Shown: piece after piece, positions 8,193 to 38,131 of the stretch
Numbering within the stretch: position 1 is the stretch's first letter
Layout: the number at the start of each line of letters is the position of its first letter
Source: Pseudomonadota bacterium
GTDB taxonomy: Bacteria; Desulfobacterota; Desulfobacteria; Desulfobacterales; Desulfolunaceae
Direction: 5' to 3'
NCBI GenBank assembly: GCA_018818835.1
Contig: JAHIRD010000023.1
Coordinates: 1-41,067 of the forward strand
DNA: 41,067 nucleotides
Made by a program: the position numbers and the translations under genes
Notes under the pieces: model-generated
The model's input: the letters and a program-made list of their open reading frames with translations, nothing else
Told to the model about the DNA's origin: nothing
Databases searched by the model: none

Positions 8193-10400
8193 ATGACTAT
8201 TGCTATGCAAGGTTCCTGGACCGTTTCAGTTTTAAGCAAAAATGCGTCCTGGGCTCAACGTTTTGTAATCAATGGATCAACCAATGGTGTGGATGGTGAA
8301 TATTACGACACAAGCCCCCCCGTGTTTGTCACCGGCAACCAATGGGGGATCACCCTGCAACACAATCCAAGCGGTCCGGTCAGCTGGATCCAGAGCCGGA
8401 CACGCATGGTCCGATTCAGGATTTCCGGAGGACAATTTCTGTTTGATATTGAAGGGAATGATACAGGCGGCGACGAAGACTTTGACGATCTCATTCTCAC
8501 CTGTTCCATGACCCAGGCACAAAGCGAATATGTGGTTTACGGCACAGTGAAAAGTTACAGCGGAGTCTGTTCGTTCAACCCATGTTTCCCTTCGAGCTAT
8601 CATGTTATTGATAAGCCCTATCAGTTAAAAGAACTTCTAAAAGACAAGAAGGTCAGAAAAATTCTGGAAAAAATCTATCCGGAACGGATCAAGGAATTTG
8701 AAAAGGTCAAGCCCTTTCCCCAGCCGGATCCGCCGCCTTTCCGACCCATGATGATCCCCAGCGGCTTGAGTGACAGACCCGGATACATGGTTCAACCCCC
8801 AGCAACCACCGCCACCGAAAACATCCGGGCCACCACAACCCTGAAAAAAGCTGTGAAAAAAGGCTCGGCGGACACGGATGCGGGTGGTGTCGAAAAAGCC
8901 GTTTACACCCTTGCGTCTGAACATGCCGCCAGCAGCAGCCTCCTGACCCATGACGACCTGATGATTCTGGGTAAAATCAAGGATGCATTCCGGGTCAAAC
9001 CCTGTGAGGTGGAACCGGTGACCCAGACCATTTTACGCTTTCTGGAATATGACCGCACTGCTGCAGAAAAACTGGGCGACCCTTACACCGGTGAAGGTAA
9101 TAGGTTTGCTCTGGGAGTTAGCGCCACAGACGAATTCGGGACGTATCTTTACCGTTTTTCCCAGACCTATGACCAGCTGGCTGAAGAGGCAGGCGATATG
9201 ACCACGGGAGAAGATGCCGCAATGGAAATGCGACCCGATGTGATCATCCAGCTCCTGGAAACCCTGCCGTCCGGGGTCATGTATGAAACGGCCCCCTATT
9301 ACAATATCCCCAACATAAAATGCATCAATCTCTGTATTCCTTCAGAGGAACTGGTCGTTCCCCTGACATCCTGCCAGGGCGGCCGGGCCATCCAGGCCCT
9401 GGGCAACCTGTCCATCATCACCACCGGCACCACCCTCCACACTGACGGGACCGTTTCCAATAGTAACGAGACTGGCCCCATCGTCGATCATGCGGCCTGG
9501 TACGAGACCTTGGACCTGCATGCCTGTTTTCTGGATACCAACCCCAGGGTTAAATATTACACCCTGAGATCCAGGACACACAGCAGTGACGGCTGGACAG
9601 GCTGGACTTACGTGACCGAAGAATACAAACACTCCAAACAGCAAGGCGACGGATCCTGGAAAAATGAACGTGTTGGGCCGGACGATATCAGCCTGAAGGT
9701 TAACGGACCGACCCAGCCCCCGGTCCTTGTGAGTGCATATCTCAACATTGAGGACCAGAACCTGAACCAGGAATGGCAGAACTGGAAACGCGACCGCAAG
9801 CTTCAAATCAACACGAAATTATACCAGGCAGACTCCGGGCTTGTGGAATACAAAATACAAGGCTACGACGCAGCAGGTGAAAAGGTGACGGCAGCCGTGG
9901 ATACCATCCGTCTTTTCGTCGACAACACCTGGACCAAAGGGGATGTGGATTATGTCAAAATGGGTGCAGAAGATCCCGGTGAATGTGCGTTGTTTGTCCT
10001 TCCCACACCGGGCCAACCCCTGACGGTCCGCTACCGGGTCACTGACCCGGAAGGTTTCATGGCCAATTACGCCCTGACCGTTTACCGGGGTTCCAACACC
10101 TTGGTTCCCACGAAAAATCCGATCACAAACCTCCCTGTAAACGTTTCATATCAGTCGGCATTCCCCTACCGATTCAGGGGAACCCTGGATGAAACCGTAG
10201 ACACCACAGGTTACGTGGAAATTTCCCTGATTCCATCGGGCACTGACAATTCCTGGCTTGCAAACGGGGTTGATTTTTGCGCTTTTTCCTTTGAACTCAC
10301 GGCCCTTGACAGAAAAACCAACGGGACGAGCAAGCCCAGTACCCACATGCTGTGGCGCGAACTGGTCGGGATTACTTACGAATGGCCTGAAACTCCCTGA
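8193..10400 (+). CDS. Large protein of unknown function (735 aa)
   Basis: Not recognised. There is no signal peptide, membrane segment or catalytic motif. The first ~110 residues form a beta-rich unit that opens GSWTVSVLSKNASWAQRF and ends in an acidic GGDEDFDDLIL loop, resembling Ca-binding or carbohydrate-binding beta-sandwich ends. Residues about 145-180 are charged and helical, and about 180-235 are Pro/Thr/Lys-rich linker. A conserved-looking central block has scattered Cys (for example IKCINLCIPSEE). The C-terminal ~270 residues are again beta-rich with repeated Trp/Tyr/Asp (WTGWTYV, TVRYRVTDPEGF), like tandem immunoglobulin-type modules. Monocistronic, closed by a hairpin. It could be a structural or surface protein exported without a classical signal, but nothing proves this. 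Confidence 0.8.
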   Translation: MTIAMQGSWTVSVLSKNASWAQRFVINGSTNGVDGEYYDTSPPVFVTGNQWGITLQHNPSGPVSWIQSRTRMVRFRISGGQFLFDIEGNDTGGDEDFDDLILTCSMTQAQSEYVVYGTVKSYSGVCSFNPCFPSSYHVIDKPYQLKELLKDKKVRKILEKIYPERIKEFEKVKPFPQPDPPPFRPMMIPSGLSDRPGYMVQPPATTATENIRATTTLKKAVKKGSADTDAGGVEKAVYTLASEHAASSSLLTHDDLMILGKIKDAFRVKPCEVEPVTQTILRFLEYDRTAAEKLGDPYTGEGNRFALGVSATDEFGTYLYRFSQTYDQLAEEAGDMTTGEDAAMEMRPDVIIQLLETLPSGVMYETAPYYNIPNIKCINLCIPSEELVVPLTSCQGGRAIQALGNLSIITTGTTLHTDGTVSNSNETGPIVDHAAWYETLDLHACFLDTNPRVKYYTLRSRTHSSDGWTGWTYVTEEYKHSKQQGDGSWKNERVGPDDISLKVNGPTQPPVLVSAYLNIEDQNLNQEWQNWKRDRKLQINTKLYQADSGLVEYKIQGYDAAGEKVTAAVDTIRLFVDNTWTKGDVDYVKMGAEDPGECALFVLPTPGQPLTVRYRVTDPEGFMANYALTVYRGSNTLVPTKNPITNLPVNVSYQSAFPYRFRGTLDETVDTTGYVEISLIPSGTDNSWLANGVDFCAFSFELTALDRKTNGTSKPSTHMLWRELVGITYEWPETP

Positions 10401-10541: not shown

Positions 10542-12248
10542 TCAATGTTCACACCCCATATCCTGATTAATCTTCTCGCGCAATATCCGAAACGTGTTAC
10601 ATTTTGCCATGAAGGCGTCCACCACGTCAGGATCAAAATGCCTGCCTTTTTCAAGAATCAGAATTCGTGCAGCTTCCTCATGGGAATAAGCCAGTTTGTA
10701 TTCCCGTTTGGATGTCAGGGCATCATAAACGTCAGCCAAAGAGACAATCCGGGTCGAAAGTGGGATTTCCTCTCCTTTAAGCCCTTTAGGATATCCTGTT
10801 CCATCCCATTTTTCATGATGATGGTAGGCGATTTCTTTTCCTATGGTCAGAAATGATTTCCCGTGGACTGTGGCTTCCACGGACTTGAGTGCATCACCGC
10901 CAAAGGTGGTATGACACTTGATGATTTCAAATTCCTCGGGGAGAAGTTTGCCTGGCTTCAGTAATATGGCATCGGGGATTCCCACCTTGCCAATATCATG
11001 GAGAATGGAGGACTGGTAAATGGCTTCAATGTACTCGTCAGTAATGTAGCCTCGGTATTTGGGATCTTTGGATAGTTCATCCGCAATGATTTTTGAGTAC
11101 TCACGAATGCGTTCAAGATGTGCTCCGGTGCTGTGATCCCTGTATTCCGCAAGTTTGGCCAATCCCAGGATGGTTGATGCACGGGCATGCTGAATGTCCA
11201 GATAGGATTCTATCAGTTGGTTTTCAAGGCGTTTTCGCTCCGTGATATCCCGGACCACCATCTGGAATCCCACATGTCTGCCCTGTTTTGTGATCTGGGT
11301 GGCATTGCATTCCACATTAAACACTTCACCCATGACATTCACCAGCCGGAATTGAAAATCCTTGATACTTTCGATTCCCGGCAGTTTTTCAAGGAGGCTC
11401 TCACGGACTTTGTCGTAATCCATGGGATGGACATAGTCAATAAGACTCATGCCACCGGCCTGGCTTTCAGCAAAACCGACCAGGGAGTAAAACCGGGGAT
11501 TGGCCATAATAACCCGGCCGTTTTTGTTCACCAGAATCACCATGTCCACAATATGCTCATACAACTCACGGTATCGAAGTTCTGATTCTTCCAGTTTCTT
11601 TGCCCGTTTATCCACTTCCTCTTCCAGGTTGTGGGCATAATATTCCAGTTTAAGCCTGAGATCAAACGTATGGATCCGCAGACGTGTATCATTCCAGCAT
11701 TGAACAACGGTAATGAGCATAAAGGAAATGAAAAAGAAATTATTTGTGTAAAACACATTCAGGTCATTTCCATAGGGATGGGTGAACAAAACCACCGGGA
11801 CGACGTAAATCAGATAAACAAGTGTGGCCAAACCGATGGATTGCTGTGTGTTAAGGGGAATGATCATGGAACAGGCGATCAGTACCAGGATCAAACCCGG
11901 ATAATAAAATGACCCGTACCCGCCCATTTCAACAACCATCAAGGAGATCAAACAACTGGCAGGAAGATAAGTAATCACGGCAAGAATGAACGGATGGTCT
12001 TTACAATAACGGGCCTGATGAAAAACAATCATCACCCCATATAGTAAGGCACAGATCAACCGGTAGACCAGAAAGGGAAGAAAACGCTCGGGAACAGCCA
12101 CCAGATCCAGCAGCGAAAAAAATGGGATAAGGGTGATTCCAAGCAGGATCACAACCAGAACACGCTGATGCATTAATGCTTTTGTTTCTTCTTCAAATCG
12201 CTTCCCGCACTCATCCGGGATAGTCTGTGCTAACCATTTGAACAACAC
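10542..12248 (-). CDS. Membrane PAS/HD-GYP signalling protein
   Basis: 568 residues. Five or six membrane segments occupy about residues 28-185, followed by a coiled linker (195-225), a PAS domain (about 226-340, with VVRDITERKR at its end) and an HD-GYP domain (about 350-565). HD (His 417, Asp 418 in ILHDIGKVGIP) and GYP (485-487 in HHEKWDGTGYPKGL) are intact, so c-di-GMP (or cGAMP) phosphodiesterase activity is likely. The start is GTG, with GGAGG 6 bases upstream lying just before the stop of the preceding gene; the 12-base gap implies one operon with the cNMP-binding methyltransferase. The membrane domain looks like a MASE-type sensor; its signal is unknown. Confidence 0.9.
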   Translation of the reverse strand: MLFKWLAQTIPDECGKRFEEETKALMHQRVLVVILLGITLIPFFSLLDLVAVPERFLPFLVYRLICALLYGVMIVFHQARYCKDHPFILAVITYLPASCLISLMVVEMGGYGSFYYPGLILVLIACSMIIPLNTQQSIGLATLVYLIYVVPVVLFTHPYGNDLNVFYTNNFFFISFMLITVVQCWNDTRLRIHTFDLRLKLEYYAHNLEEEVDKRAKKLEESELRYRELYEHIVDMVILVNKNGRVIMANPRFYSLVGFAESQAGGMSLIDYVHPMDYDKVRESLLEKLPGIESIKDFQFRLVNVMGEVFNVECNATQITKQGRHVGFQMVVRDITERKRLENQLIESYLDIQHARASTILGLAKLAEYRDHSTGAHLERIREYSKIIADELSKDPKYRGYITDEYIEAIYQSSILHDIGKVGIPDAILLKPGKLLPEEFEIIKCHTTFGGDALKSVEATVHGKSFLTIGKEIAYHHHEKWDGTGYPKGLKGEEIPLSTRIVSLADVYDALTSKREYKLAYSHEEAARILILEKGRHFDPDVVDAFMAKCNTFRILREKINQDMGCEH

Positions 12249-12260
12249 TTAAAGCCTCCT

Positions 12261-13814
12261 TCAGGATGGTTTTGTCGCCACAGAAAACAGGTTAATTCCC
12301 TGGGCCTCGCTGATCACCCTGACATGGCCCCTGAACGGAGAATCATCATGGAGATGAATCAGGTCTGTTTCGGACCGATGGATTAATTTCCAGTCCAACA
12401 TATGATCCATAAACATCCGGATGGGATTTTTCGGAGAAAAATTCCCCAACATCAATACGCCACCAGGCGCCAACTGGTCGTGGCATCGTGCAACCATGGC
12501 TTTGAAAAGCCTGTCATCAAGATAATCCATCAGACCGGATGAATAAATAATGTCCTGGGGGCCAAAATCATGTTCCACACGCCCCATACACCACTTGACA
12601 AGATTCTCCTGCATCAGGGATATGGTGGCCTTGTGTTCAAACGACGATAAAACAGTATGAGCATATTTCAGGGCATCCGGGTCAATATCCACACAGATGG
12701 CCCTGATGGCCTCACTGTGATCACATCGTCCAATAAAATCGGCCAACTCCCTGCAGGGACCACAGGCAAGATTCATGATGGAGACGGTTTTACCGCTTGT
12801 AATTTTATCGTGACAGATGGTTTCAATCTCCCGAGCCAGCAGATCGCGGCGTTTTCTAACAGCCTGCGCCGCCGGGGAATTGAGACACCAGGCATCCATA
12901 AGGGTGCCGATTTTTCCATCGCCCTGGGGGGTGTCTTGATAAAGCATTTCAATGGTCATGAAGTCCCCGGCATACCCTTTGGGCTTGAAGTAGGACCTTT
13001 CTGCAAAGCGACTGCGCATCACATAGGGGAAGGCTTCTTTGAACAGGTACTGCCATAAAGAGGCTTTGGCATCATCATCAAGAAGAAGGAATTGGAATCC
13101 CTCCATCATGGAATTGAATTCATTGAACATATCTTCCCCTTGCCTTTTCAGGTCATGGGAAATGACTGGGGCCGGATCTTTCTGAAGGAGACAGGAAAAG
13201 TCAAATACGCGGGACTTGAAAAAGGTATCAATCTGGCCTTGAGCCATGATTCCCATGGGGGTTTTTAAAAAATCGTAACGGATCCCGGGTTCAGGCGTCT
13301 GGGTTCGTTGCCCTGTTGAAAGAGACGCCGCATACGCTGTGAGAGGCTCCCGTTCATCCAGGATTCTGCGAAATTTCTGGGAAATGGAAAATGAAACCAC
13401 CATCATCAATTGACCAAAAAGAGAGGTTTTGTTTATCTGGAGGCGATTCAATGCATCACTATCAAAAACATGAATGACAGCATCTTCAACTGCCCGGATA
13501 TCTCTTATCCGATAGGATCTGTCAAAAAATCCACTTTCACCGAAAAAGTGACCGGCACCGATGAGGGCAACCACAATCCGAGTCTCTCCCAAGGGATATG
13601 ACACTTCCACAGCCCCTTGACTCAGATAATAAAAACTGGCCGACTCCATTCCCCCGATAATGACCTCCATATTTTTCCGGCATTGCATGGTTTTTGCGTA
13701 AGGTAAAACCCTATCCATCAAACGGCTTCGGGTTTTATGGGCGATGATGTCGGAAACGTCCATGGGTAGATTTTCCAGCTCCTGGCTCTCCAACGTGTGA
13801 TCATTCTGTTTCAT
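12261..13814 (-). CDS. cNMP-binding domain fused to class I SAM methyltransferase
   Basis: About 517 residues. An N-terminal cyclic-nucleotide-binding beta-roll (about 30-135, with the GHFFGESGFF phosphate-cassette region) is followed by a helical linker (about 140-330) and a Rossmann methyltransferase: SAM motif I NLACGPCREL (about 350-360 region), acidic VDIDPDAL, and IIYSSGLMDYLDD. This combination implies a methyltransferase controlled by cAMP/cGMP or a similar ligand; the methyl acceptor is unknown. The phosphate cassette deviates (RSYRIRDIRA), so ligand type is uncertain. The ATG at 13814 is preferred over one four codons upstream because GGAGG lies exactly 5 bases before it. First gene of an operon with the HD-GYP protein. 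Confidence 0.85.
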   Translation of the reverse strand: MKQNDHTLESQELENLPMDVSDIIAHKTRSRLMDRVLPYAKTMQCRKNMEVIIGGMESASFYYLSQGAVEVSYPLGETRIVVALIGAGHFFGESGFFDRSYRIRDIRAVEDAVIHVFDSDALNRLQINKTSLFGQLMMVVSFSISQKFRRILDEREPLTAYAASLSTGQRTQTPEPGIRYDFLKTPMGIMAQGQIDTFFKSRVFDFSCLLQKDPAPVISHDLKRQGEDMFNEFNSMMEGFQFLLLDDDAKASLWQYLFKEAFPYVMRSRFAERSYFKPKGYAGDFMTIEMLYQDTPQGDGKIGTLMDAWCLNSPAAQAVRKRRDLLAREIETICHDKITSGKTVSIMNLACGPCRELADFIGRCDHSEAIRAICVDIDPDALKYAHTVLSSFEHKATISLMQENLVKWCMGRVEHDFGPQDIIYSSGLMDYLDDRLFKAMVARCHDQLAPGGVLMLGNFSPKNPIRMFMDHMLDWKLIHRSETDLIHLHDDSPFRGHVRVISEAQGINLFSVATKPS

Positions 13815-14210
13815 TGTATCCTCCATGGATGGGGTTAATCATGGGTCATATACAATCACAGGAAACGGAAAAAACTCCAAAACATCACGTCAATTTGACT
13901 TATTAAGATAAAAAGGCAATCGTTTCAGGAATTTATTTATTCCCTGTACCTAACCGTTTTCAGGTGATGGTTTTGAAGAAATCGTCAGCTTCAATGGACA
14001 GGACGCATGCCTTTGTAAAAGAGGGAGAGGACTGATTGACAAGGCAGACGATATGCATGCAATCATTTGTCTTATCAAAGAATAGAGGATAGAGAGAGGG
14101 AAGTCAACAGGATAAACAGATCATTTTAACTCCAATCGTCCCAAGATGAATAGTGTTCACTTTCAGAACACGAAGAGCAAGAAATAAGGAACGATAAGTT
14201 GGCCGTTCCT
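13815..14210. other. Intergenic region upstream of the signalling operon
   Basis: About 396 bases without a convincing gene or stable hairpin. It should contain the minus-strand promoter of the methyltransferase/HD-GYP operon and the 3' end of the radC transcript. Confidence 0.35.
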
Positions 14211-19175: not shown

Positions 19176-19898
19176 TCACATATGCCCCCGGACATAAGCT
19201 TCCAGGTCAGGGGCGCATGCCTGATCAAGCAGGTAGGCGTCCACATCCACCGAATACTGGTCGCCCTGGTGTTCGGCAAGCCGGATTTGGGGTTTATGTA
19301 CAATGGAACTCCAGGGAGCACACAAGACAATGGTCTGAATTTTTTTCTGAACTTCCGGAAAGGATTCCTGGGAAGTCAGGGTCAACCTGAAGGTGGCAGA
19401 GGCTGATTTCCCGGGGAATTTTTCCATCACGCTTTCTTTGACCAGGGCACTGTAGGGGATTTCAACGTGACTGCCTCCTGGGGTTTCAATGGTCAGGGAC
19501 CGATATCCCAGATAGGTCAGGCGACCATGAACATTTCTGAAGCTGACCTTGTCATTGAGCCTGTATCTGTCTTCGGCTTTAAAAACAACACCGGCAATCC
19601 AGTCCCTGACCACAAAACTGCCGGTCCAGGCCAACAACCCCACCATCAGAACCAACAGAACCATGGTCCCTGCGATGCCCGTTTGAAAAATCAGTTTGGC
19701 ACCCCACATCAAAAACACGATCCATACGGAAAATTCAACAATGGGAAAAACTCGGTTGATCATAGGGTTCACCTGTTCCCGGGCAACAAGGACATGGAGT
19801 CCTTTTTGGATGAGACGCAATCCGATGAACAGCCCCATACCGGCAGCCAGGATTTCGATCACCGTCAGTTCCGAAATATCATGAAACAGTTCAATCAT
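19176..19898 (-). CDS. MscS-family small mechanosensitive-type channel
   Basis: 240 residues, inner membrane. Three hydrophobic segments (about 10-30, 48-72 and 76-107) precede an MscS beta-domain (VVFKAEDRYRLNDKVSF...LGYRSLTIETPGGSHVEIPYSAL) and a short alpha/beta C-terminal domain. The pore helix lacks the Gly/Ala packing of E. coli MscS TM3, so gating may differ. Its ATG overlaps the stop of the upstream permease-ATPase gene by four bases (ATGA), which implies translational coupling. The pairing suggests joint control of ion or osmolyte flux. It could serve as a regulated channel rather than an emergency valve. Confidence 0.82.
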   Translation of the reverse strand: MIELFHDISELTVIEILAAGMGLFIGLRLIQKGLHVLVAREQVNPMINRVFPIVEFSVWIVFLMWGAKLIFQTGIAGTMVLLVLMVGLLAWTGSFVVRDWIAGVVFKAEDRYRLNDKVSFRNVHGRLTYLGYRSLTIETPGGSHVEIPYSALVKESVMEKFPGKSASATFRLTLTSQESFPEVQKKIQTIVLCAPWSSIVHKPQIRLAEHQGDQYSVDVDAYLLDQACAPDLEAYVRGHM

Positions 19899-22800
19899 AG
19901 TATTTTCCTTGCACGAAGTTGATCAATCAAAAAGGACTCTGCATAGGGGTTAATTGACCAGCGGTTGTCACCGTGGGCCTCAAGGATGCCTGCCCGTTGA
20001 AGCACATCAATGATGCGCCTGCAAGGGGGCTCCTCCCACCCCATCAGCCTCATCAGACGCGGTCGATTTAAGGTTTTATGCAGGACAAACTGGAGAATCA
20101 CGACCATCCAGTCCATGGGCAGATGGGATAGTTTCGTCAGATCGGGCAAAAACGACGTTGCCATCTGGACCGTATCTCCCTGGACTTGATCAATATGACT
20201 GATCCAGGCATGGAGCGCCACCCCCGGATTCCCCTTGGAATAATCGTAAAACCTTCGAAACATCCGTGCCAGATTCAGTTCCGAAATCGTCTCTTCGGTG
20301 TGATGTCCATAGGTGAAAATCAAGCCGGTGGCCTTATGCCGCATCAGAATCATGGTTTTTAATTCTTCCGGGGTCATGGGTCTGCACTCAATCACATCCA
20401 ATAAATAATCATCAATTTTCTGAAGATTCCGGATCAGGGCCAAGGCATGGGTATTCATGTTAAAAATAAAAAAACACTGGTGGCCGAATTCCCGGATCAT
20501 CCATTCCAGATGGTTCATAATCGCGCTGCCCTGGGGATGGCGCTCCCACCAGAGTTCCAGATTATGAAAAACAATCACACTCTGTGAGGGGATCTGCAGA
20601 AACAGATAACGGATGTCCCCCCTGACCTGAAGGGCGGTTTCCATGCTCTGATGAAAGGTATCCAGACTGCATGATCCATCCGCCGGGGGAAAGATTTGAA
20701 ACACAGACTGGGAGTCGAAAAACTGCTGGGCAATAAAATGGGACAGTGTTCTTTTTCCGGAAAAACGCTCACCCGTCACCATCAAGGCACCGCTCACGCC
20801 TGCCTTGAAACGATCCACAGCAATTTGGGCACGGGCAAGTTCATCTTGCCGTCCCACCCAGAAGTCTTTACTGGGGGGTTGTTCACTCAAAAAAAGCTGC
20901 TTGTAATGAAAGGGCAGATCTTCAAGGACACGCTTTTTGGGCGACACGGTTTCCAGCCATGCCAGGATGTCCTTGACACAGGGTTCCTTATGAGAAGTTG
21001 TCTCCGGCCCATGGGTTGCTGTGATCATCTGTTTCTGTTTGTAAACCCATTTGATAAGAATCGACTGGGCCCAGGTTTCAACGCGACGTCCTTTTTTTCC
21101 AAAAATGGAAATGACTTTTTTACTTTCCTGATACCGGATGTATCGCCTGAGTTCACCGGAAGATTGAATGATCAGATAGGGATTGATTTTTTCGGTAAAA
21201 AGCTTCAAGCCCTTATCAATAATATCCATGAGTTCCTGTTGAAGGTCTGTCACCGATTCTTTTTCCGTTTCTATCCGGCCCACGGTTTGATTGACAATGG
21301 ACTGGCCCCCGTTATCCCCTTGAATTTCACCTGAAAACTCGGGTGAGGACAGATTAAACGAAAGAAACCTCACGGCCTCCTTGACCCGGGAGACAATGGA
21401 TTCGATCTCAGCCTGAATTCCTGTAAAATGCTGACGTAAGGGATCCAAGAGTTCTGCGTATACAAAATATTCCAGAAGTTCCCGTAAATCCACGGACATC
21501 CCTTCCATTTCCGTAAAATGCCCATCCTGCATTTGCTGGAGGGACAGTTCCGTTATGGCCTGGGCACTTTCGGGAATGGCCTCGAATGCGGGTTGAATCT
21601 CATCAGCGATAAACTTGACGGCATGCTCCGGTATCAGATTTGGCTTGACCTCAAATTGAAGTTTGATTTTTCTTTCCGTCTCTTCATCTGAGGGGCTTAA
21701 ACCCTCCTTGGCATCATCGATCAGGCGTTCAATCTTGTCATGCAATCCGTTTTCCAGACTCAAAAACCAGTCTTGCTTGATTCTCTGCAAAATAATGGAC
21801 AACCTTCGCTGAAAGGCCATCAAAGAAAGATCCATCAATATGACGTCAACAAAAAGAGCCTGATTGTTCAACCACACCCGGGGGAAATCATTGATACTTA
21901 ATTTTGCCTGTTTACCCATGGGCATGTGTTTGACATGCTGCCTCAGAAAAAACGCGGCATCGATTGATCCGGCATCCTGTGACACCTGATTGGCAAACTG
22001 TCGCTCATCCTGCAGCAGGTTCTGGATAAATTCGAAGAATATATTATCATTGAACGTCTGGATGCGATCAATGGCCGCTTGAGTATCCTGTTTCATTTCA
22101 GAAACATTTTCGGGTGTAAGCTGCCCGTCCAGAAAACGGTTCTCGGCCCAATCCATACGATCCTTTATGGATTTGAGAGCCCCCTGAATGTCCTGGCCCC
22201 AGACATGGTGATGGAGCGCCATCTGTTGAAACTGCGTGTTCCATTTTTCCCAGACAAGATGATCCCATGAGGCCTGGACCAGCTGCCTGAAATGAACTGA
22301 TACCGAAGGATTTTTTTTCTTTCCCCAGCGGTGTTCCAGTCGTTTGAACCATTTAAAGCATTTCAATGCCAACCGATCACCTGGGTGGGCTTGGATGTTT
22401 TCCGGGGAATGCAGGACAATAACCGACTCGGGCAGATTTTTCCAATGGTCGTCCAGACGTGATGTGATGCTCTGAACAGCTTCTTCCAGCATATCTTTCT
22501 GATGGCCCATGGCTGATTGTCTGAATTCGGAAATCACACGGATAAACTGAAAAAACAAATCGCCCTGCATTTTAGCAATGCTGCGTCTTGCCTTGAGTGA
22601 CCCACTTTCAATCACCAGGCCGTCAATCCGGTCACACACATTTGCCGCCAGATCCCCAAGGGATTTCAAAAGGGTCCGATTCCGCTCATGGACTGCTGAA
22701 AAATATCGTTCCATGGACTGAAAAATCAGGGTAATGACAAACTGATCCAGATTCGTCACAAGGGATTTCAAATGGTCATCGTCCGTTAAGGATATGGCGG

Positions 22801-25045
22801 GCAGATCAAAGTTCTGATTCCCAAGGTTTGAAAGGCCATCATCCCCGAGAAGGGCCATATCCTTTTTTGATTCATATTCTATGCCCGTGACCACATTATC
22901 GAAAAATGAAGAGGCTTGAACCAAAAGTGTTGTCCCTAAACGAGAAAGGATGCGATTGGTATTTTCAACGGCAGCCGATGCATTTTGATGTAACATGTCA
23001 GGCAGCCCAAGGATGGTCAGATCCGATGCCGCCGATTCCACGGAAATAATGTCCTCAAAAGGACGTTGCTCTGCTGCATTATTGATCACCTTGATATCCC
23101 CATCAAGCCGGGCGTCCTGAAGAGTACGGGTCATGTTTTTATAGATGGTCTCAATCCGTGAACTCTCATGGGTTACAATCAAAAACCGGGGCCTGGCATC
23201 CCGCCAGGGAAGGCTTGCAAGAATAAACTTGACCATGGCCAGGGTAAAGTTCCCGTTTCTCCCGGCGCCCCGCCACCAGATATCAATCGTATTACAGCCG
23301 CCAAAGCCTTTCTGGTCATGATAATTCATCAGCATCAGGTTGTAGTCCAGCTCCTTTAAATTTTTCAGAAGCTGGAGGAATTGTTCAGGGTCTTTTGTCT
23401 TTTTTCTCCAGCCCATCAAAACGGCATTGGGCTCAATCCCTGAAAATCCATAGGTCCGGGCAATGGTGTTGATCCCCTCATAAACATCCCGGCATTCCTG
23501 CCGCCTGATAAACACCCCTTCAAAGGCCTCATCATCGGAAATGACAGTCTGGCTTGATTTGGGAAACAGCACCTTGGCTGAAGGAGTCTCGATCAAATCG
23601 AAATTGGACACCATGCCAAGCTGTCCTGCGGTCCAGCGTCCGAATTCGATCAGATGAGGCCTTGCCACGGTCCCACCGCTGAACAGCAGGATGTTGGGTT
23701 TCCAGTTACGCTGGTGGCGGCCGCTCTGGGACAATTTGAACAGCCCCATGCGAACAATGGACAACCAGACACTTTCCCAGGCATCCCCTGATTTCAGGGT
23801 CAATTCCCTGCTTTTCAAGAAGAACAAAAGGCCGCCCAGGATAAGAATACCGCCGATCATGGCCAGAAGGTCCAGCTGGATCATCACGATCAGACAGGTG
23901 AGGAACCCAAGAATGCTGACCCATTTCGGGACTTTAAACGAGGGCCTGAAATCGGAACTTGCCCAGCGTTCCACGGCACAGGACAGATTCAAAAAACCAT
24001 AGGTGGTGATAAAAAAAGTGGAGACAATCCGGGCGATAATGTCCAGTTCACCGATGAGAATCCCGGCTTCCGCTATCATGAAGGTGATCAGAATCGCGTT
24101 CCTGGGTTCGTTTTGCTTACCATGCCCTTTGGCGAAAAACCGGGGTGTGATATTATCCACCGCCGTGGCCTGGAGAATCCTGGGTGCCCCAAGAATGCTC
24201 CCGATGGCCGATGAAATCGTGGCTGCCCAGATTCCTGCGATCACCAGCTGAGGAACCAGGGAAATTTCAAGCAGCACATTGGGATTGGTGATCAGGGTAT
24301 TCGCATCAACCCGGTACAACAAGAAAACGGGAAGACTCATGTAAACCCCAAGACCCACAAGAATGGATGCAATGGTTCCTATGGGAATGGACCGTTTGGC
24401 ATCTTTGAGGTCCCCGGACATGGAAACCCCGGCCTCAAACCCGGTGACCGCCGGGAAAAAGATCCCGAACAGCACCATCATGGAAGGGGCTGTGGCCTGG
24501 GGCAAAAGGGTTATCTTGTCAGGGACATATGCGGAATGACCGAACAGGACTGAGACCAGGGACAGGGCAATGGCGCCCAGAATAAAAAACTGGAGTCTCA
24601 TGGCCAGGGAGGTGCTGATAAAGGTGAGAATCGTCACCAGCAAAAGTACGATGGACCCGGTCAACCGAATGGCATTGATGGAACTTTCTATGCCCCAGTA
24701 TGCGTTGAAACTTTCGGAAAAACCGATGATATACAAACTGACGCTGAACGACAACCCGAAAAAAAGGGCAATACCCAGGGTCCCGCCAATGGGCAGGCCC
24801 AGACTCCGGGAGATGATGTAGTAACTCCCGCCCCCCTCCACCTTCTTGTCCGTGGCAATGGAGGAAACACTCAGACCCGTACAAATGGATACAATGTGGG
24901 CCACAAGAACGATCCCAAGGACCATATAAAGCCCTGACTGGCCGACGATCCATGGTAGCCTCATGTACATGATCACGCCGAGGATGGTCAGGATGGATGG
25001 GGTAAACACCCCTGAAAACGCTCCGTATTTTTTTGCCTGGGCCAT
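19895..25045 (-). CDS. Cation-chloride-cotransporter-like permease fused to helical region and P-loop ATPase
   Basis: 1716 residues, very long for the family. Residues about 8-410 are an APC-superfamily permease with ~12 helices; the opening (FTPSILTILGVIMYMRLPWIVGQSG) and VTGFEAGVSMSGDLKDAKRSIP are hallmarks of SLC12 (Na-K-Cl/K-Cl cotransporter-like) proteins. Residues 450-720 match the SLC12 C-terminal cytosolic domain (NILLFSGGTVARP, FGGCNTIDIWW). About 760-1330 is a long helical, partly coiled-coil region. About 1395-1620 is a STAND/AAA-like ATPase: Walker A GERFSGKRT (1425-1433) and Walker B VIVFHNLELWW (about 1490-1500). A winged-helix-like tail ends the protein. No stop or frameshift interrupts it. 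GGAG precedes the ATG. It is coupled to an MscS channel gene by an ATGA overlap. ATP-dependent gating of ion cotransport is inferred. Confidence 0.88.
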   Translation of the reverse strand: MAQAKKYGAFSGVFTPSILTILGVIMYMRLPWIVGQSGLYMVLGIVLVAHIVSICTGLSVSSIATDKKVEGGGSYYIISRSLGLPIGGTLGIALFFGLSFSVSLYIIGFSESFNAYWGIESSINAIRLTGSIVLLLVTILTFISTSLAMRLQFFILGAIALSLVSVLFGHSAYVPDKITLLPQATAPSMMVLFGIFFPAVTGFEAGVSMSGDLKDAKRSIPIGTIASILVGLGVYMSLPVFLLYRVDANTLITNPNVLLEISLVPQLVIAGIWAATISSAIGSILGAPRILQATAVDNITPRFFAKGHGKQNEPRNAILITFMIAEAGILIGELDIIARIVSTFFITTYGFLNLSCAVERWASSDFRPSFKVPKWVSILGFLTCLIVMIQLDLLAMIGGILILGGLLFFLKSRELTLKSGDAWESVWLSIVRMGLFKLSQSGRHQRNWKPNILLFSGGTVARPHLIEFGRWTAGQLGMVSNFDLIETPSAKVLFPKSSQTVISDDEAFEGVFIRRQECRDVYEGINTIARTYGFSGIEPNAVLMGWRKKTKDPEQFLQLLKNLKELDYNLMLMNYHDQKGFGGCNTIDIWWRGAGRNGNFTLAMVKFILASLPWRDARPRFLIVTHESSRIETIYKNMTRTLQDARLDGDIKVINNAAEQRPFEDIISVESAASDLTILGLPDMLHQNASAAVENTNRILSRLGTTLLVQASSFFDNVVTGIEYESKKDMALLGDDGLSNLGNQNFDLPAISLTDDDHLKSLVTNLDQFVITLIFQSMERYFSAVHERNRTLLKSLGDLAANVCDRIDGLVIESGSLKARRSIAKMQGDLFFQFIRVISEFRQSAMGHQKDMLEEAVQSITSRLDDHWKNLPESVIVLHSPENIQAHPGDRLALKCFKWFKRLEHRWGKKKNPSVSVHFRQLVQASWDHLVWEKWNTQFQQMALHHHVWGQDIQGALKSIKDRMDWAENRFLDGQLTPENVSEMKQDTQAAIDRIQTFNDNIFFEFIQNLLQDERQFANQVSQDAGSIDAAFFLRQHVKHMPMGKQAKLSINDFPRVWLNNQALFVDVILMDLSLMAFQRRLSIILQRIKQDWFLSLENGLHDKIERLIDDAKEGLSPSDEETERKIKLQFEVKPNLIPEHAVKFIADEIQPAFEAIPESAQAITELSLQQMQDGHFTEMEGMSVDLRELLEYFVYAELLDPLRQHFTGIQAEIESIVSRVKEAVRFLSFNLSSPEFSGEIQGDNGGQSIVNQTVGRIETEKESVTDLQQELMDIIDKGLKLFTEKINPYLIIQSSGELRRYIRYQESKKVISIFGKKGRRVETWAQSILIKWVYKQKQMITATHGPETTSHKEPCVKDILAWLETVSPKKRVLEDLPFHYKQLFLSEQPPSKDFWVGRQDELARAQIAVDRFKAGVSGALMVTGERFSGKRTLSHFIAQQFFDSQSVFQIFPPADGSCSLDTFHQSMETALQVRGDIRYLFLQIPSQSVIVFHNLELWWERHPQGSAIMNHLEWMIREFGHQCFFIFNMNTHALALIRNLQKIDDYLLDVIECRPMTPEELKTMILMRHKATGLIFTYGHHTEETISELNLARMFRRFYDYSKGNPGVALHAWISHIDQVQGDTVQMATSFLPDLTKLSHLPMDWMVVILQFVLHKTLNRPRLMRLMGWEEPPCRRIIDVLQRAGILEAHGDNRWSINPYAESFLIDQLRARKIL

Positions 25046-25567: not shown

Positions 25568-27799
25568 ATGATCCGATTAGGGCTTCCGTCAAGGCTGAGT
25601 ATGCGATTGAAAACGTTTCACACCAGACTCCTGTGTACCTTCTTCTTATTGATCGGGGGGAGTGGTCTTCTCATCGTCCTGACCGGCACGGTCTGTTGCA
25701 GGCATAGCGTGCACAAATCCGCCCTGGCCCAGGGGACACGGCTTGCCCAATCCGTCTCCCACGCTGTGAATGAGCCCCCCCTGCCCGACACCATGTTAAA
25801 TCTGGATCAATTATTAAAGGGTCGCCTTGCCGAAAACCCGCAAATTGCCTATCTGTTCATCACAGATCATGGAAAGGTCATGGCCCATACCTTTGCAGGG
25901 GGGCTGCCCCCCGGCATCCTCCATGCCAATGGCCACACGGACAAGTCGGGCGCCGCCTTGGTTCATATAGACTCAGGAGACGGCCAACGCTATGTAGACA
26001 TGGCCTTGCCCATGTTTGACAACCACAAAGGCCTATTGAGAATCGGATTTTATGAAGCATCCCTGATGCCGACCATTCAGGCCTTATGGATACAGTCCGG
26101 TGTGACAAGTCTTCTTGTTCTTTCACTGACTCTGCTCCTTGGTTTTTTTATCATCCGGCGATTCACTCGGCCCTTGAGACGTCTTTCCATGGCAGCCCAT
26201 ACCCTTGACAACAAGAACCTGAACTTCCTTCCGCAGCCAAGCAATCAACGTGAAATAAACATCTTATCGTCATCGTTCACCAACATGGTCGAACAGGTCA
26301 GGTCATATTCAACTGGCCTTGAATCGCGGACCCTTGAACTGGATCGCGCCTACCGTCTGATCTTCCATTCCTTTGACATGATCCGGACCATGGGCAACCA
26401 TTCTACCCTGCACAATGTCTGCACCTGCCTGATGGACAAACTTAAGGATATCATGGAATGCAGCCATCTGACCATGGTTACGTCCAGCCGGGATCAGCTT
26501 TTTTATTATCTTTATTCATGTGGTCAATTGACCATTATGCCCGACGAACAGTACCAATCCGTATCAAAATTATTGAATCATCTTAACGAATTTACCTTTA
26601 TCAAAAAAAATTCCCTCCATGCTCCGATGTTTGAGGGTCATTTCCCGTCCTCGTCCCGGATCGGTATTTTCCCCATCCATTTTGAGAATCAAAAACTCGG
26701 TGCCTTATTTGTTGGATGCCAACGGGAATGCAGGTGTCCGACCAGGGAACTTGAGTTAATATACCATGCCCTCCAGGAATGCGCAGGGGCCTTAAGCCGG
26801 GCTGCCAGTCATACGGAAATGATTCAGAGCACCCATGGCCAGATCAACCAGCCCGTACAATTCTGTGGCATCGTAGGGAAAGACCGGCATATGCAGGACT
26901 TATTCACACTGATCAAAGACATTGCCCCAACCGACGCGGCCGTGCTCATTCAAGGGGAAAGCGGCACAGGTAAAGAGCTTGTGGCCAGGGCCATCCATGA
27001 CCAAAGCCCCCGGAAAGACATGCCTTTTATTGTTATCAACTGTTCGGCCTATCCCTCATCCCTCCTGGAAAGTGAGCTGTTCGGCCATGAAAAAGGAGCG
27101 TTCACAGGAGCGATCCGACAAAAATCCGGGAGATTTGAGCAGGCTGACGGAGGGACAGTTTTTATGGATGAAATCGGCGAAATCGCACCCTCTGCCCAGA
27201 TAAAACTGCTGCGTGTGCTCCAAACCCATACCTTCGAGCGCATAGGAGGCGAACAATCCCTGCATGTGCGTGTGCGCATCATCGCTGCGACAAATAAAGA
27301 CCTGATCGAAGAGGTTCAAAACGGACGATTTCGTGAGGACCTCTACTATCGACTGAACGTCATCCCCATTCACCTTCCCCCCTTGCGAAAAAGGAACAAT
27401 GACATCCCCCTTCTGGCCCGTCATTTTCTCAAGCAATTCAACCAGGAACAAGGAAAATCAGTGAAAGATTTCAAAACCGAGGCCATGCGCAGGCTCCTGG
27501 ACTATCCCTGGCCCGGCAATGTCCGGGAACTGGAAAACACCATAGAGCATGCCCTGGTACTCACCCGAAGCGATTATATCGAAGTGTCGTCTTTGCCGTT
27601 GACACTGCGATCCCAGGAAAACACACATCCAACACATCACCAAAACACCATGGTTGAAAACGAAAAAAAACTATTCCATGACATTCTGGAAGAAACAGGC
27701 TGGAATAAAAAACGTGCGGCAAAACGTTTGGGAATCAGTCGCTCAACCCTTTATAATAAAATCAAGAAATATAACCTCCTCCAGCCCACCCTCCATTAA
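25568..27799 (+). CDS. Membrane-anchored sigma-54-dependent Fis-family activator
   Basis: 743 residues. A transmembrane segment (about 20-42), a periplasmic sensor region (45-170), a second helix (about 175-197), a HAMP-like stretch (198-250) and a GAF-like domain (about 265-410) precede the sigma-54 AAA+ domain (about 432-665): Walker A GESGTGKE (463-470), the sigma-54 contact loop GAFTGA (510-515) and Walker B VFMDEIGE (531-538). A Fis-type HTH (KKRAAKRLGISRSTLYNKIKKY) closes the protein. Fusing a membrane sensor directly to the activator is less common than a kinase/regulator pair. Met 1 has no good ribosome site; Met 12 (25601) is an alternative. Divergent from the permease-ATPase gene, a plausible target. 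Confidence 0.92.
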   Translation: MIRLGLPSRLSMRLKTFHTRLLCTFFLLIGGSGLLIVLTGTVCCRHSVHKSALAQGTRLAQSVSHAVNEPPLPDTMLNLDQLLKGRLAENPQIAYLFITDHGKVMAHTFAGGLPPGILHANGHTDKSGAALVHIDSGDGQRYVDMALPMFDNHKGLLRIGFYEASLMPTIQALWIQSGVTSLLVLSLTLLLGFFIIRRFTRPLRRLSMAAHTLDNKNLNFLPQPSNQREINILSSSFTNMVEQVRSYSTGLESRTLELDRAYRLIFHSFDMIRTMGNHSTLHNVCTCLMDKLKDIMECSHLTMVTSSRDQLFYYLYSCGQLTIMPDEQYQSVSKLLNHLNEFTFIKKNSLHAPMFEGHFPSSSRIGIFPIHFENQKLGALFVGCQRECRCPTRELELIYHALQECAGALSRAASHTEMIQSTHGQINQPVQFCGIVGKDRHMQDLFTLIKDIAPTDAAVLIQGESGTGKELVARAIHDQSPRKDMPFIVINCSAYPSSLLESELFGHEKGAFTGAIRQKSGRFEQADGGTVFMDEIGEIAPSAQIKLLRVLQTHTFERIGGEQSLHVRVRIIAATNKDLIEEVQNGRFREDLYYRLNVIPIHLPPLRKRNNDIPLLARHFLKQFNQEQGKSVKDFKTEAMRRLLDYPWPGNVRELENTIEHALVLTRSDYIEVSSLPLTLRSQENTHPTHHQNTMVENEKKLFHDILEETGWNKKRAAKRLGISRSTLYNKIKKYNLLQPTLH

Positions 27800-30335: not shown

Positions 30336-31571
30336 ATGACGTATCTGGTCCAAGGTTTGATGACTGTATTTTTTACCATGGCTCTGGCTTTGCCCTTCAT
30401 GGGTTGCAGCCCCGAAAAACCGGTAGACATGAAACGGATCCTGGCCCAGGAAAAATCATATGTGGGGTCCGACACCTGCAAGATGTGCCATCTGGAACAC
30501 TACGATTCCTGGAAGGAAACCATGCACAGCCGGATGACCCAGGATGCCCAGAAAAACCAGGATGCCATCATCGCCCCCATTGATGAAAAAGAAATCCGGA
30601 AAGACCTTGCCAAACGCAGCGGAGAGCTCAAGGTGCCTGCCGAATCCATTTACATACCCAAAGTCGAAGACATCAAAATCGTCATCGGATCTGAATGGAA
30701 ACAGCGCTATGTTGTTCAAAAAGATGGCGATTACTTTGTCGCACCCATTGAGTACCACTCGGACAAACACCAATGGCTGAATTATTATGAAGAAGACTGG
30801 GACAAACGATCCTGGCTGCTGTTGTGCGCCGGCTGCCATGCCACGGGTGTGGATATTGAAAAGAAAACATACACCGAGTTGGGCGTTGCCTGCGAAGCCT
30901 GCCATGGCAAAGGGTCATATCATGCCGCCCTTCCCAAAACAGCTGTTTTCGAAAAACGACAGACCATTGTCAATCCCGCAAAATTGACCACAGGTGTCGC
31001 CACCCAGATCTGCGGATCCTGCCACACCAAAGGTCAGGCCACCCATAATAAAGACGCTGGCTGGGCCGTGGGCTATCAACCGGGAAAAGCCTTGCAACCC
31101 TATTTCCGGTCCAAAGACTATGAAGGCGATAACGTCAAACAATACTATGCTGAGGATTTTTCCAAGGGACATCATCAGCAGTTCTCAGATTGGCAGCAGT
31201 CCCAGCATTTCAAAGAAGGGGTCAGTTGTACCTCCTGCCATTATGTCCACCAGCTTGGCATTGCCCAGGCCGGCTCCCAGACCCTCAAACCTGGATCACA
31301 ACAGTGTTTTGAGTGTCATCAGATCCTGAACAAAACAACCGGGCATGCCATCCACTCTTTTGCCAATTGCATCGGCTGCCACATGCCAAAAATTGCGGTC
31401 AGCGATGAATCGGGTTTCAACCACAGCCATGTTTTTATGGCCCTGACGCCCAAGGATACCATTGAAAATCCTGATGTTCCAAACTCATGCCAGGCCTGTC
31501 ACAAGCATAAAAATGATGTGCTGCTTGATTTACAGAACAAGGCTTTCCCCGGATCCATGGATGACTGGTGA
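30336..31571 (+). CDS. Octaheme c-type cytochrome, probable lipoprotein
   Basis: 411 residues. The signal peptide ends in a lipobox-like PFMGC with Ser at +2, which suggests outer-membrane attachment, though the lipobox is weak. Eight CXXCH motifs (near residues 48, 165, 188, 228, 299, 324, 346 and 385) make it an octaheme protein of the cytochrome c554/multiheme-nitrite-reductase-like superfamily. A long non-heme insert separates hemes 1 and 2. No active-site lysine-type heme motif is seen, so electron transfer is likelier than catalysis. AAGGAGG precedes the ATG. First gene of the cytochrome cluster, followed after one base by a repeat copy. Confidence 0.9.
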   Translation: MTYLVQGLMTVFFTMALALPFMGCSPEKPVDMKRILAQEKSYVGSDTCKMCHLEHYDSWKETMHSRMTQDAQKNQDAIIAPIDEKEIRKDLAKRSGELKVPAESIYIPKVEDIKIVIGSEWKQRYVVQKDGDYFVAPIEYHSDKHQWLNYYEEDWDKRSWLLLCAGCHATGVDIEKKTYTELGVACEACHGKGSYHAALPKTAVFEKRQTIVNPAKLTTGVATQICGSCHTKGQATHNKDAGWAVGYQPGKALQPYFRSKDYEGDNVKQYYAEDFSKGHHQQFSDWQQSQHFKEGVSCTSCHYVHQLGIAQAGSQTLKPGSQQCFECHQILNKTTGHAIHSFANCIGCHMPKIAVSDESGFNHSHVFMALTPKDTIENPDVPNSCQACHKHKNDVLLDLQNKAFPGSMDDW

Positions 31572-38031: not shown

Positions 38032-38131
38032 GGATTGTCGTGCATCACGGCCCTGTCCAGTGTGAGATTAATGCAATTAAAAAGGAGGGTGAAACATGTT
38101 CGGCATTCATCATTCCAAATGGGAGGTAGTC

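Follow-up and report, generated by a model that had tools for sequence, protein, structure and literature searches.

The way in which bacteria balance salt transport and turgor is only partly understood, and the cation-chloride cotransporters (CCCs, or SLC12 family) of animals are regulated by kinases that are separate proteins. What, then, would a bacterium gain from a CCC-like transporter that carries a putative switch domain in its own chain and is encoded directly beside a protein resembling the mechanosensitive channel MscS? This question is raised by a 41,067-nucleotide stretch of DNA, hereafter the window, from a member of the Desulfolunaceae (assembly GCA_018818835.1, contig JAHIRD010000023.1), in which an uninterrupted open reading frame (ORF) for 1716 amino acids at 19895..25045 of the minus strand is followed downstream by an ORF for a 240-residue MscS-like protein that starts within its stop codon. 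An earlier note, made from the letters of this DNA, had read the long frame as an SLC12-like permease with its cytosolic domain, about 600 residues of helical sequence and a P-loop ATPase with Walker A and B motifs, and the pair as an ATP-sensing system with import and release arms. The architecture stood up to the comparison presented here. As to the mode of action, we tentatively favour, at somewhat less than an even chance, a different one, in which the MscS-like ring would sense tension and act on the transporter through a hydrolysis-poor AAA+ latch, rather than the two proteins serving as arms of import and release.

Transporter, helical region and AAA+ domain in one chain

From its N-terminus onwards, the 1716-residue protein consists of a CCC permease, a CCC cytosolic domain, a long-helix region and a C-terminal AAA+ domain. 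In the Pfam search, PF00324 matches residues 13-413 (E 7e-42), and TIGR00930, a K-Cl cotransporter model, covers residues 2-666 (E 7e-113) with 379 bits, under its curated cutoff of 953. A PDB search retrieved the KCC4 structure 7d99 (E 2e-75), with an alignment reaching residue ~656, and the SLC12 C-terminal model PF03522 matches residues 585-660 below its cutoff (E 3e-4). Judged by sequence, an APC-fold permease and a CCC C-terminal domain are both present and place the protein at family level among the CCCs, with KCC, NKCC, NCC and the archaeal MaCCC, the last reportedly described by Warmuth in 2009. Contrary to these relatives, it has ~1000 extra residues, helical and AAA+, and a linked MscS gene; complete stand-alone CCCs of the same order mostly have 730-880 residues.

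The residues of the Na+ and K+ sites of cotransporters are named in PMC7035313. A275, S278 and S279 in transmembrane helix (TM) 8 align without gaps to A610, S613 and S614 of NKCC1, the putative Na+ site, where KCC4 has S, G and A; Y105 in TM3 aligns to the tyrosine at the K+ site of KCCs. The K-Cl identity hinted at by the name of TIGR00930 was ruled out by these TM8 residues. NKCC-type residues at both sites (A/S/S for Na+, Tyr for K+) occur in 63/63 fused CCC rows, two of which are identical, and so do a Pro, a Thr and the TM10 Tyr; unlike NKCC1, the fused CCCs have Thr at the position of N298 and Leu at that of W300. The Na+-site residues are no marker of fusion, since stand-alone CCCs have them too (the Ser pair in 17/17, the Ala in 16/17). 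We infer that the fused CCC carries out Na+/K+/Cl- cotransport, probably directed inward.

An AlphaFold model of residues 690-1716, built on a 72-row alignment (mean pLDDT 83), shows the long-helix region, with single helices as long as 74 residues and pLDDT mostly >80, followed by a compact C-terminal domain. Structure searches with this model were filled by its AAA+ part, and no fold is claimed for the helical stalk. Pfam recognizes the AAA+ domain poorly (AAA_16, E 0.015, with the AAA models under cutoff in the window, even though they exceed it in relatives L034 and L198), whereas it is clear by profile search and by fold. Foldseek aligned residues 1372-1716 to 1w5t (E 1.2e-7), and the best VIA match was the same structure, ORC2 of A. 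pernix (Z 15.8, 322 residues, rmsd 5.3), with the winged helix included and the match extending to model residue 1026, which is residue 1715 of the protein. Further fold matches comprise Orc2/Cdc6, TnsC, NSF D2, ClpB and RuvB, and since the next VIA rows are close (Z 14.9 and 14.8), we keep the label at Orc/Cdc6-like and no finer. A PDB sequence-profile search with the AAA+ alignment mainly retrieved P-loop proteins in general, including human ORC4 (E 5e-4). In the model, the domain thus has the AAA+ core and C-terminal winged helix of Orc1/Cdc6, TnsC and related proteins; unlike in those, it sits on a transporter chain.

Recurrence of the fusion and of its MscS neighbour

Relatives were collected by scanning named GTDB contigs with the helical and AAA+ part, which gave 174, the best 80 being kept; this sample leans toward the fusion, because the query patterns derived from fused proteins. 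Five genomes of the window's order are among the 80: G004 (locus L094), G020 (L114), G078 (L099), G253 (L093) and G371 (L092). G004, of the same family (66% identity), and G020, of another (39%), both have the unbroken fusion with MscS following it, and L094 lies in the complete chromosome of Desulfoluna limicola (NZ_AP024488.1). Altogether, a single frame with its own start encodes the whole CCC, the helical part and the AAA+ domain in 60 of the 80 loci; in three of these (L136, L141, L166) the frame is truncated on its 3' side where the contig stops. The frame is interrupted within the CCC part, with the remainder just upstream, in 4/80 (L092, L126, L148, L164). A further seven lack their 5' end because the contig stops there, yet show the CCC; in five more 5'-cut loci no CCC is visible, and L154 consists of separate CCC, ATPase and MscS genes. 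Three Flavobacteriales loci (L147, which is 5'-cut, L159 and L169) encode a CCC-type helical and AAA+ protein with neither CCC nor MscS in view. An alignment of the downstream, helical and AAA+ parts comprised 66 of 71 rows (leaving out the copies L093, L094, L099 and L114, and L169 for unread bases) plus six from the window's order. Since the architecture recurs in a complete chromosome and in many species, the fusion is no sequencing join, an artefact that the earlier note had kept in mind and that, like a set of split genes, is ruled out by L094 and the 60 one-frame loci.

In 69 of the 76 loci that could be judged (L136, L141, L159 and L166 end too soon), an MscS gene follows on the same strand at a distance of no more than 500 bases, and in 33 of these 69 the gap is -3, the ATGA-type overlap found in the window. 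MscS is the sole strongly recurrent neighbour, its BLAST cluster occurring in 59 loci against 9 for the runner-up, and no conserved third gene comparable to it was found among the neighbours of the 80 loci. By gene neighbourhood, the fused CCC-AAA+ protein is linked to MscS far beyond chance, and its homologues are neither always split nor always unlinked.

In a CCC tree (81 rows, midpoint root), whose 17 stand-alone CCCs come from the window's order only, the fused CCCs and the split one form a single clade (SH-aLRT 100) apart from the stand-alone proteins. The one clear natural split, L154, is nested within this clade, which suggests one old CCC-AAA+ fusion followed by later fission. The clade spans Thermodesulfobacteriota, Bacteroidota, Ignavibacteriota, Calditrichota, Fidelibacterota, Myxococcota, Gemmatimonadota, Latescibacterota, Rhodothermota and Chlorobiota, and the clades of the tree largely track phyla.

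The AAA+ domain also occurs without the CCC. Among 291 genomes of the window's order, an AAA+ probe gave 14 matches above 90 bits over a background below 33, six of them CCC fusions. Of the eight CCC-free ones, two are soluble helical and AAA+ proteins of ~1020 residues (one on contig C256 of the window's own genome, one in G020), two (L071, L073) are a 398-residue AAA+ domain alone, two (L072, L074) are proteins with 5-6 TM helices, L035 is a coiled-coil/TM protein and L070 is 5'-cut. All 14 adjoin a PF00924 gene, including the 8/8 CCC-free ones, and two further AAA+ matches are also MscS-linked, in G371 (L091/L092) and in G672 (L090, 5'-cut). The window's own genome thus holds a second AAA+/MscS system with no transporter (L036, C256, 173..4247, minus strand), where the gene for a 340-residue MscS overlaps that for the soluble protein, of 1021 residues. 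A profile comparison aligned the CCC-fused proteins with the two soluble ones over 895 columns, helical part included, at probability 99.9, with an E-value that refers to the whole alignment, in which the AAA+ part may dominate.

A second type of transporter appears in 15 AAA+ proteins (Myxococcota; phylum of G776) with an N-terminal part of the Na+/H+-exchanger type, PF00999, found in the CPA family. Pfam confirms it in eight (L198, L199, L200, L231, L232, L234, L239, L241), and our own profile finds it in the others. Unlike ordinary CPA-family exchangers, these are fused to helical and AAA+ parts and are MscS-linked, in 14 of the 15 cases (none was seen for L236), the MscS match being weak (40-75 bits) beside L199, L200, L239, L241, L242 and L243; the window protein has a CCC in place of the CPA part. 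Two of the fusions have an extra N-terminus of 400-500 residues (L200, with CPA from ~564 of 1922, and L239, from ~450 of 1902), and in L233 (137-1654), L234 (271-1638) and L235 (1-942) the gene immediately upstream of the fusion encodes another CPA-like protein (24-47 bits, own profile). In L244, an 11-TM part of no Pfam family is joined to the AAA+ domain, and a weak MscS match (35 bits) adjoins.

The family is sparse around the window, in 13/389 genomes of its class at E 1e-12 and in 2/395 of a phylum sample, the window's own included, and common in the phylum of Plesiocystis (49/140 genomes), in searches that scored the best few candidates per genome. In this last phylum, MscS stands next to the AAA+ ORF in 29/29 loci with flanks and in nine of ten more fetched loci; among nine extra copies in named genomes (L192-L200), it is present in eight, not in L193. 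A CCC or CPA match was absent from all 22 few-TM loci that were inspected again over wider flanking sequence, of which L256, L258 and L259 are still 5'-cut and L261 is a 314-residue frame without TM helices. Judging from these loci, the AAA+ family itself is MscS-linked, nearly always lying beside MscS whether soluble, alone, few-TM, CCC-fused or CPA-fused. The AAA+/MscS pair appears as the general unit, with the CCC as one of several transporter partners, which the earlier note had missed.

In an AAA+ tree, effectively unrooted and with moderate supports, most CCC- and CPA-fused rows group together (47 rows, SH-aLRT 92), opposite the few-TM, soluble and ATPase-only rows. Since the CPA fusion L231 and L193 are placed on the side of the latter, fusion to a transporter may have occurred two or more times. 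MscS genes also adjoin two of 20 CCC loci without AAA+, all with short flanks (L006, 1-1431; L017, 2086-2934), hinting that the CCC-MscS link may predate the fusion or be independent of it.

These distributions bear on two rival explanations. The first is simple co-expression of independent osmotic-stress genes that share only their regulation, and the stand-alone CCC of the same order beside MscS (L006) fits it, as does the role of both MscS and ion transporters in osmotic balance, given for haloarchaea in PMC4230888. We consider it very unlikely, as shared regulation is at odds with immediate adjacency over many phyla, often with stop/start overlap, and with an AAA+ domain that keeps its MscS neighbour even where no transporter is fused.

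The second is NLR-like immunity, where the AAA+/STAND-like domain would detect a phage signal and open an MscS-type effector. A P-loop protein with a membrane effector is a common defence layout; several AAA+ relatives have nSTAND/NACHT-type profile similarity, weak in most, with the curated cutoff passed by nSTAND1 in L231 and by NACHT in L244; and the coiled-coil/TM AAA+/MscS pair L035 (3-3963) has Cas-like genes (Cas5-/Cas3-like by eye) some kilobases upstream of it. Nevertheless, this is to us the least probable of the explanations: the window protein has no PADLOC match up to E 1 (the best of three relatives reaches E 2.7e-4), CCC or CPA fusions with conserved ion sites would be implausible effectors, and clades mostly follow phyla. 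The AAA+ domain is also unmatched in 72,556 plasmid and 50,697 phage records, and a plasmid or phage origin was likewise discarded on this result.

Pore helix, nucleotide site and possible mechanism

The 240-residue protein matches PF00924 (E 2.5e-9), as do all 14 MscS rows of the window-order alignment, the window included. Its predicted model (pLDDT 86) shares with E. coli MscS, MscK, YnaI and YbiO a beta domain, an alpha/beta domain and, at the N-terminus, three long helices, and Foldseek relates it to MscK/MscS at E about 1e-11; on the MS_channel beta domain and the whole predicted fold, it is a member of the MscS superfamily. The difference lies in the pore. Gly and Ala residues have a role in the pore of E. 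coli MscS, where their fraction in TM3 is 0.47 (2vv5). Over residues 79-95 of the window protein this fraction is 0.18, with means of 0.175 in CCC-linked rows (68 rows) and 0.218 in CPA-linked ones (10/14 rows), compared with 0.412, 0.378 and 0.382 in three transporter-free sets (8, 21 and 2 rows). W and D are common in TM3 of the CCC-linked proteins. The MscS alignment comprised 62 of the 69 rows (without the copies L093, L094, L099 and L114, and without L146, L155 and L162) plus six from the window's order, and over-long automatic starts were trimmed to the last 252 residues.

A pore motif, G[FLWIV][AGST].[QKR][DE], which we defined on these same rows, occurred in a first count in 31/31 transporter-free and 1/83 transporter-linked rows. 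That count lacked 4/14 CPA-linked and four few-TM rows; a recount with these and L090, L146, L155 and L162 gave 36/36 transporter-free against 3/90 transporter-fused rows, the latter divided into 1/75 CCC-linked, 2/14 CPA-linked and 0/1 of unknown type. The sole CCC-linked match (L202) lies before TM3, and some CCC-linked rows are 5'-cut or split. On the row set of the first count, on which the G+A means also rest, the difference in G+A gives a Mann-Whitney p of 8e-13 (83 vs 31 rows). The window protein has neither the motif nor a Gly/Ala-rich TM3, so we regard it as a member of the fold whose channel role is putative only.

The nucleotide site is also altered. Walker A of the window protein, GERFSGKRT, has R where GxxxxGK[ST] expects S or T, and Walker B, VIVFHNLEL, has H and N in place of the usual acidic pair of hhhhDE, as in its nearest relatives, so that the domain is an AAA+ fold and a putative ATPase only. 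In the 80 relatives, Walker A has GK in 79 and GR in one, followed by T in 47, S in 32 and N in one. The first Walker B position, unlike in Orc1/Cdc6 and TnsC, is mostly N (35) or H (23), together 58/80, with D in 16 and E in 6; the second is D in 73, N in 6 and E in 1. Within 85 AAA+ rows, the few-TM proteins have D or E at the first Walker B position in 29/29, though strict GxxxxGK[ST] in 22/29, so not all are canonical; CPA-fused proteins have R after the Walker A lysine in 8/15 and S or T in 4/15. Fusion to a transporter thus tends to go with decayed hydrolysis motifs, in differing ways, and CCC fusions mostly retain Walker A. The degenerate site that the earlier note had considered fatal to its proposal is therefore partly what was found, and its 'ATP-sensing' might mean nucleotide binding with little hydrolysis, because the site is degenerate, or in the window protein perhaps neither.

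The same site bears on the idea that the AAA+ domain is a chaperone-like assembly or remodelling factor for the MscS ring or the transporter oligomer, regulating no flux. Its closeness in fold to NSF D2, ClpB and RuvB, besides ORC, and the near-constant MscS linkage would suit such a role; decay of hydrolysis motifs in the transporter-fused branches would be unexpected for a motor, each transporter chain has a single AAA+ domain, and we judge the idea quite unlikely.

A stronger contender, though still doubtful in our view, is the mechanism closest to the earlier note: salt would enter through the CCC and leave through MscS as a genuine valve, with an ATP-sensing AAA+ domain balancing the two arms. 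The conserved adjacent pair with its stop/start overlap, the NKCC-type ion residues, the complete MscS fold and the retention of Walker A in most CCC-type relatives are as this mechanism would have them. The release arm is nevertheless hard to reconcile with a pore motif in 1/75 CCC-linked rows, and there before the pore helix, and balancing by ATP with a nucleotide site in the window that lacks the Walker A Ser/Thr and both Walker B acids.

The comparison establishes a fusion linked to MscS, an AAA+ fold with decayed hydrolysis motifs, the residues of the ion sites and a pore motif missing from nearly all transporter-fused systems, and these can be arranged into the reading with which we opened. 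The window would encode a two-gene membrane system, consisting of a Na-K-Cl-type CCC with a ~600-residue helical stalk and an AAA+ domain, plus a protein of the MscS superfamily. More generally, different ion transporters, CCCs or CPA-type Na+/H+ exchangers, would be plugged onto an AAA+ domain with a near-constant MscS partner. The AAA+ domain would dock on the MscS-like ring and form a complex with it, the helical stalk bridging the membrane and the AAA+ domain. In transporter-free systems, the AAA+ domain would control the MscS pore, which is then the effector; in transporter-fused ones, the transporter would be the effector, and the ring would be kept for sensing membrane tension (turgor). 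The AAA+/helical latch, binding nucleotide with little or no hydrolysis, would relay the state of the ring to the transporter, switching salt transport on and off with cell volume; nucleotide state could bias the latch in most relatives, and in the window protein the latch is possibly nucleotide-independent. Put in evolutionary terms, this would be a general, undescribed family of membrane controllers, in which an ancestral AAA+/MscS pair gated a pore and, after fusion to a CCC or CPA, the pore was lost and the ring became a tension sensor driving the transporter, a scenario to which we likewise give somewhat less than an even chance.

Several observations weigh against this tension-sensing reading. 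No MscS adjoins the fusion or its ATPase part in 7/76 loci (L111, L134, L147, L149, L156, L164, L169). Among four CCC-linked MscS rows of another phylum, where TM3 G+A ranges over 0.18-0.41, three stand at 0.35-0.41, and two CPA-linked rows (L239, L242) retain the pore motif. The p of 8e-13 overstates independence, because the motif was chosen post hoc and the rows share descent, and the pore change may amount to no more than one or two events, since fused AAA+ rows fall mostly on one side of the tree. Hydrolysis is also possible in most CCC fusions, as Walker A is mostly kept and Walker B has its Asp in 73/80. Beyond the two-arm and tension-sensing mechanisms, the remaining chance goes to the assembly factor, co-expression, defence and unforeseen options, and the motif recount left this weighting unchanged.

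Layout of the locus and place among known systems

Features of the two-gene locus in the window, with the basis for each
Feature	Position	Strand	Basis
CCC/SLC12-like transmembrane domain, residues 1-~420	23786..25045	-	PF00324; alignment to KCC/NKCC structures
CCC cytosolic C-terminal domain, residues ~421-690	22976..23785	-	TIGR00930; KCC4 alignment; PF03522 below cutoff
Long-helix region, residues ~757-1340	21026..22777	-	AlphaFold model; profile alignment to soluble MscS-linked relatives
AAA+ (Orc/Cdc6-like) domain, residues 1372-1716	19898..20932	-	Foldseek, VIA, profile search
Degenerate Walker A GERFSGKRT, residues 1425-1433	20747..20773	-	GK retained, with R in place of S/T
Degenerate Walker B VIVFHNLELWWER, residues 1490-1502	20540..20578	-	both usual acids replaced by H and N; ELWWER conserved in relatives
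Winged-helix-like C-terminal part, residues ~1636-1712	19910..20140	-	helix/strand order in model; ORC2 match to 1715
ATGA stop/start overlap	19895..19898	-	sequence; same 4-base overlap in 33/69 MscS-linked relatives
MscS-like gene, 240 residues	19176..19898	-	PF00924; predicted model; Foldseek
TM3 (pore helix) of MscS-like protein, residues 79-103, MVLLVLMVGLLAWTGSFVVRDWIAG	19590..19664	-	G+A 0.18; no pore motif

Divergent from this operon, a gene at 25568-27799 (+) encodes a membrane-type sigma-54 activator with sCache_3, HAMP, AAA+ and a Fis-type helix-turn-helix in one chain. A sigma-54 promoter by which it might drive the operon was considered and dropped, the -24/-12 pattern occurring 24 times in the window, where 25 matches were expected. 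Elsewhere in the window, multihaem cytochrome genes at 30336-31571 and 38096-40402 (+), one with OmcA/MtrC-type domains, suggest extracellular electron transfer. A single gene at 12261-13826 (-) combines a cyclic-nucleotide-binding and a methyltransferase domain and adjoins a gene for a PAS and HD protein (10542-12248), and a 735-residue ORF at 8193-10400 (+) has no Pfam match at E 1e-5.

All parts of the system belong to known families. Neither a CCC- or CPA-AAA-MscS system, nor its breadth, nor the divide in pore signature was described in any paper found in the open-access literature, judged by titles and the beginnings of abstracts, which is weak evidence of novelty. Among MscS proteins, the CCC-linked members are set apart from E. 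coli MscS by a TM3 almost never bearing the pore motif and by a co-encoded AAA+ partner. Because transporter-free, CCC-fused and CPA-fused versions coexist, the logic of the system can be dissected by comparison and domain swaps. If the proposed mechanism is true, a transporter with an inbuilt AAA+ switch, co-encoded with an MscS-type protein, would constitute a self-contained volume controller, the MscS superfamily would gain a cytosolic protein partner and possibly a pore-free sensor role, and the system may represent an undescribed coupling of salt transport to membrane tension.

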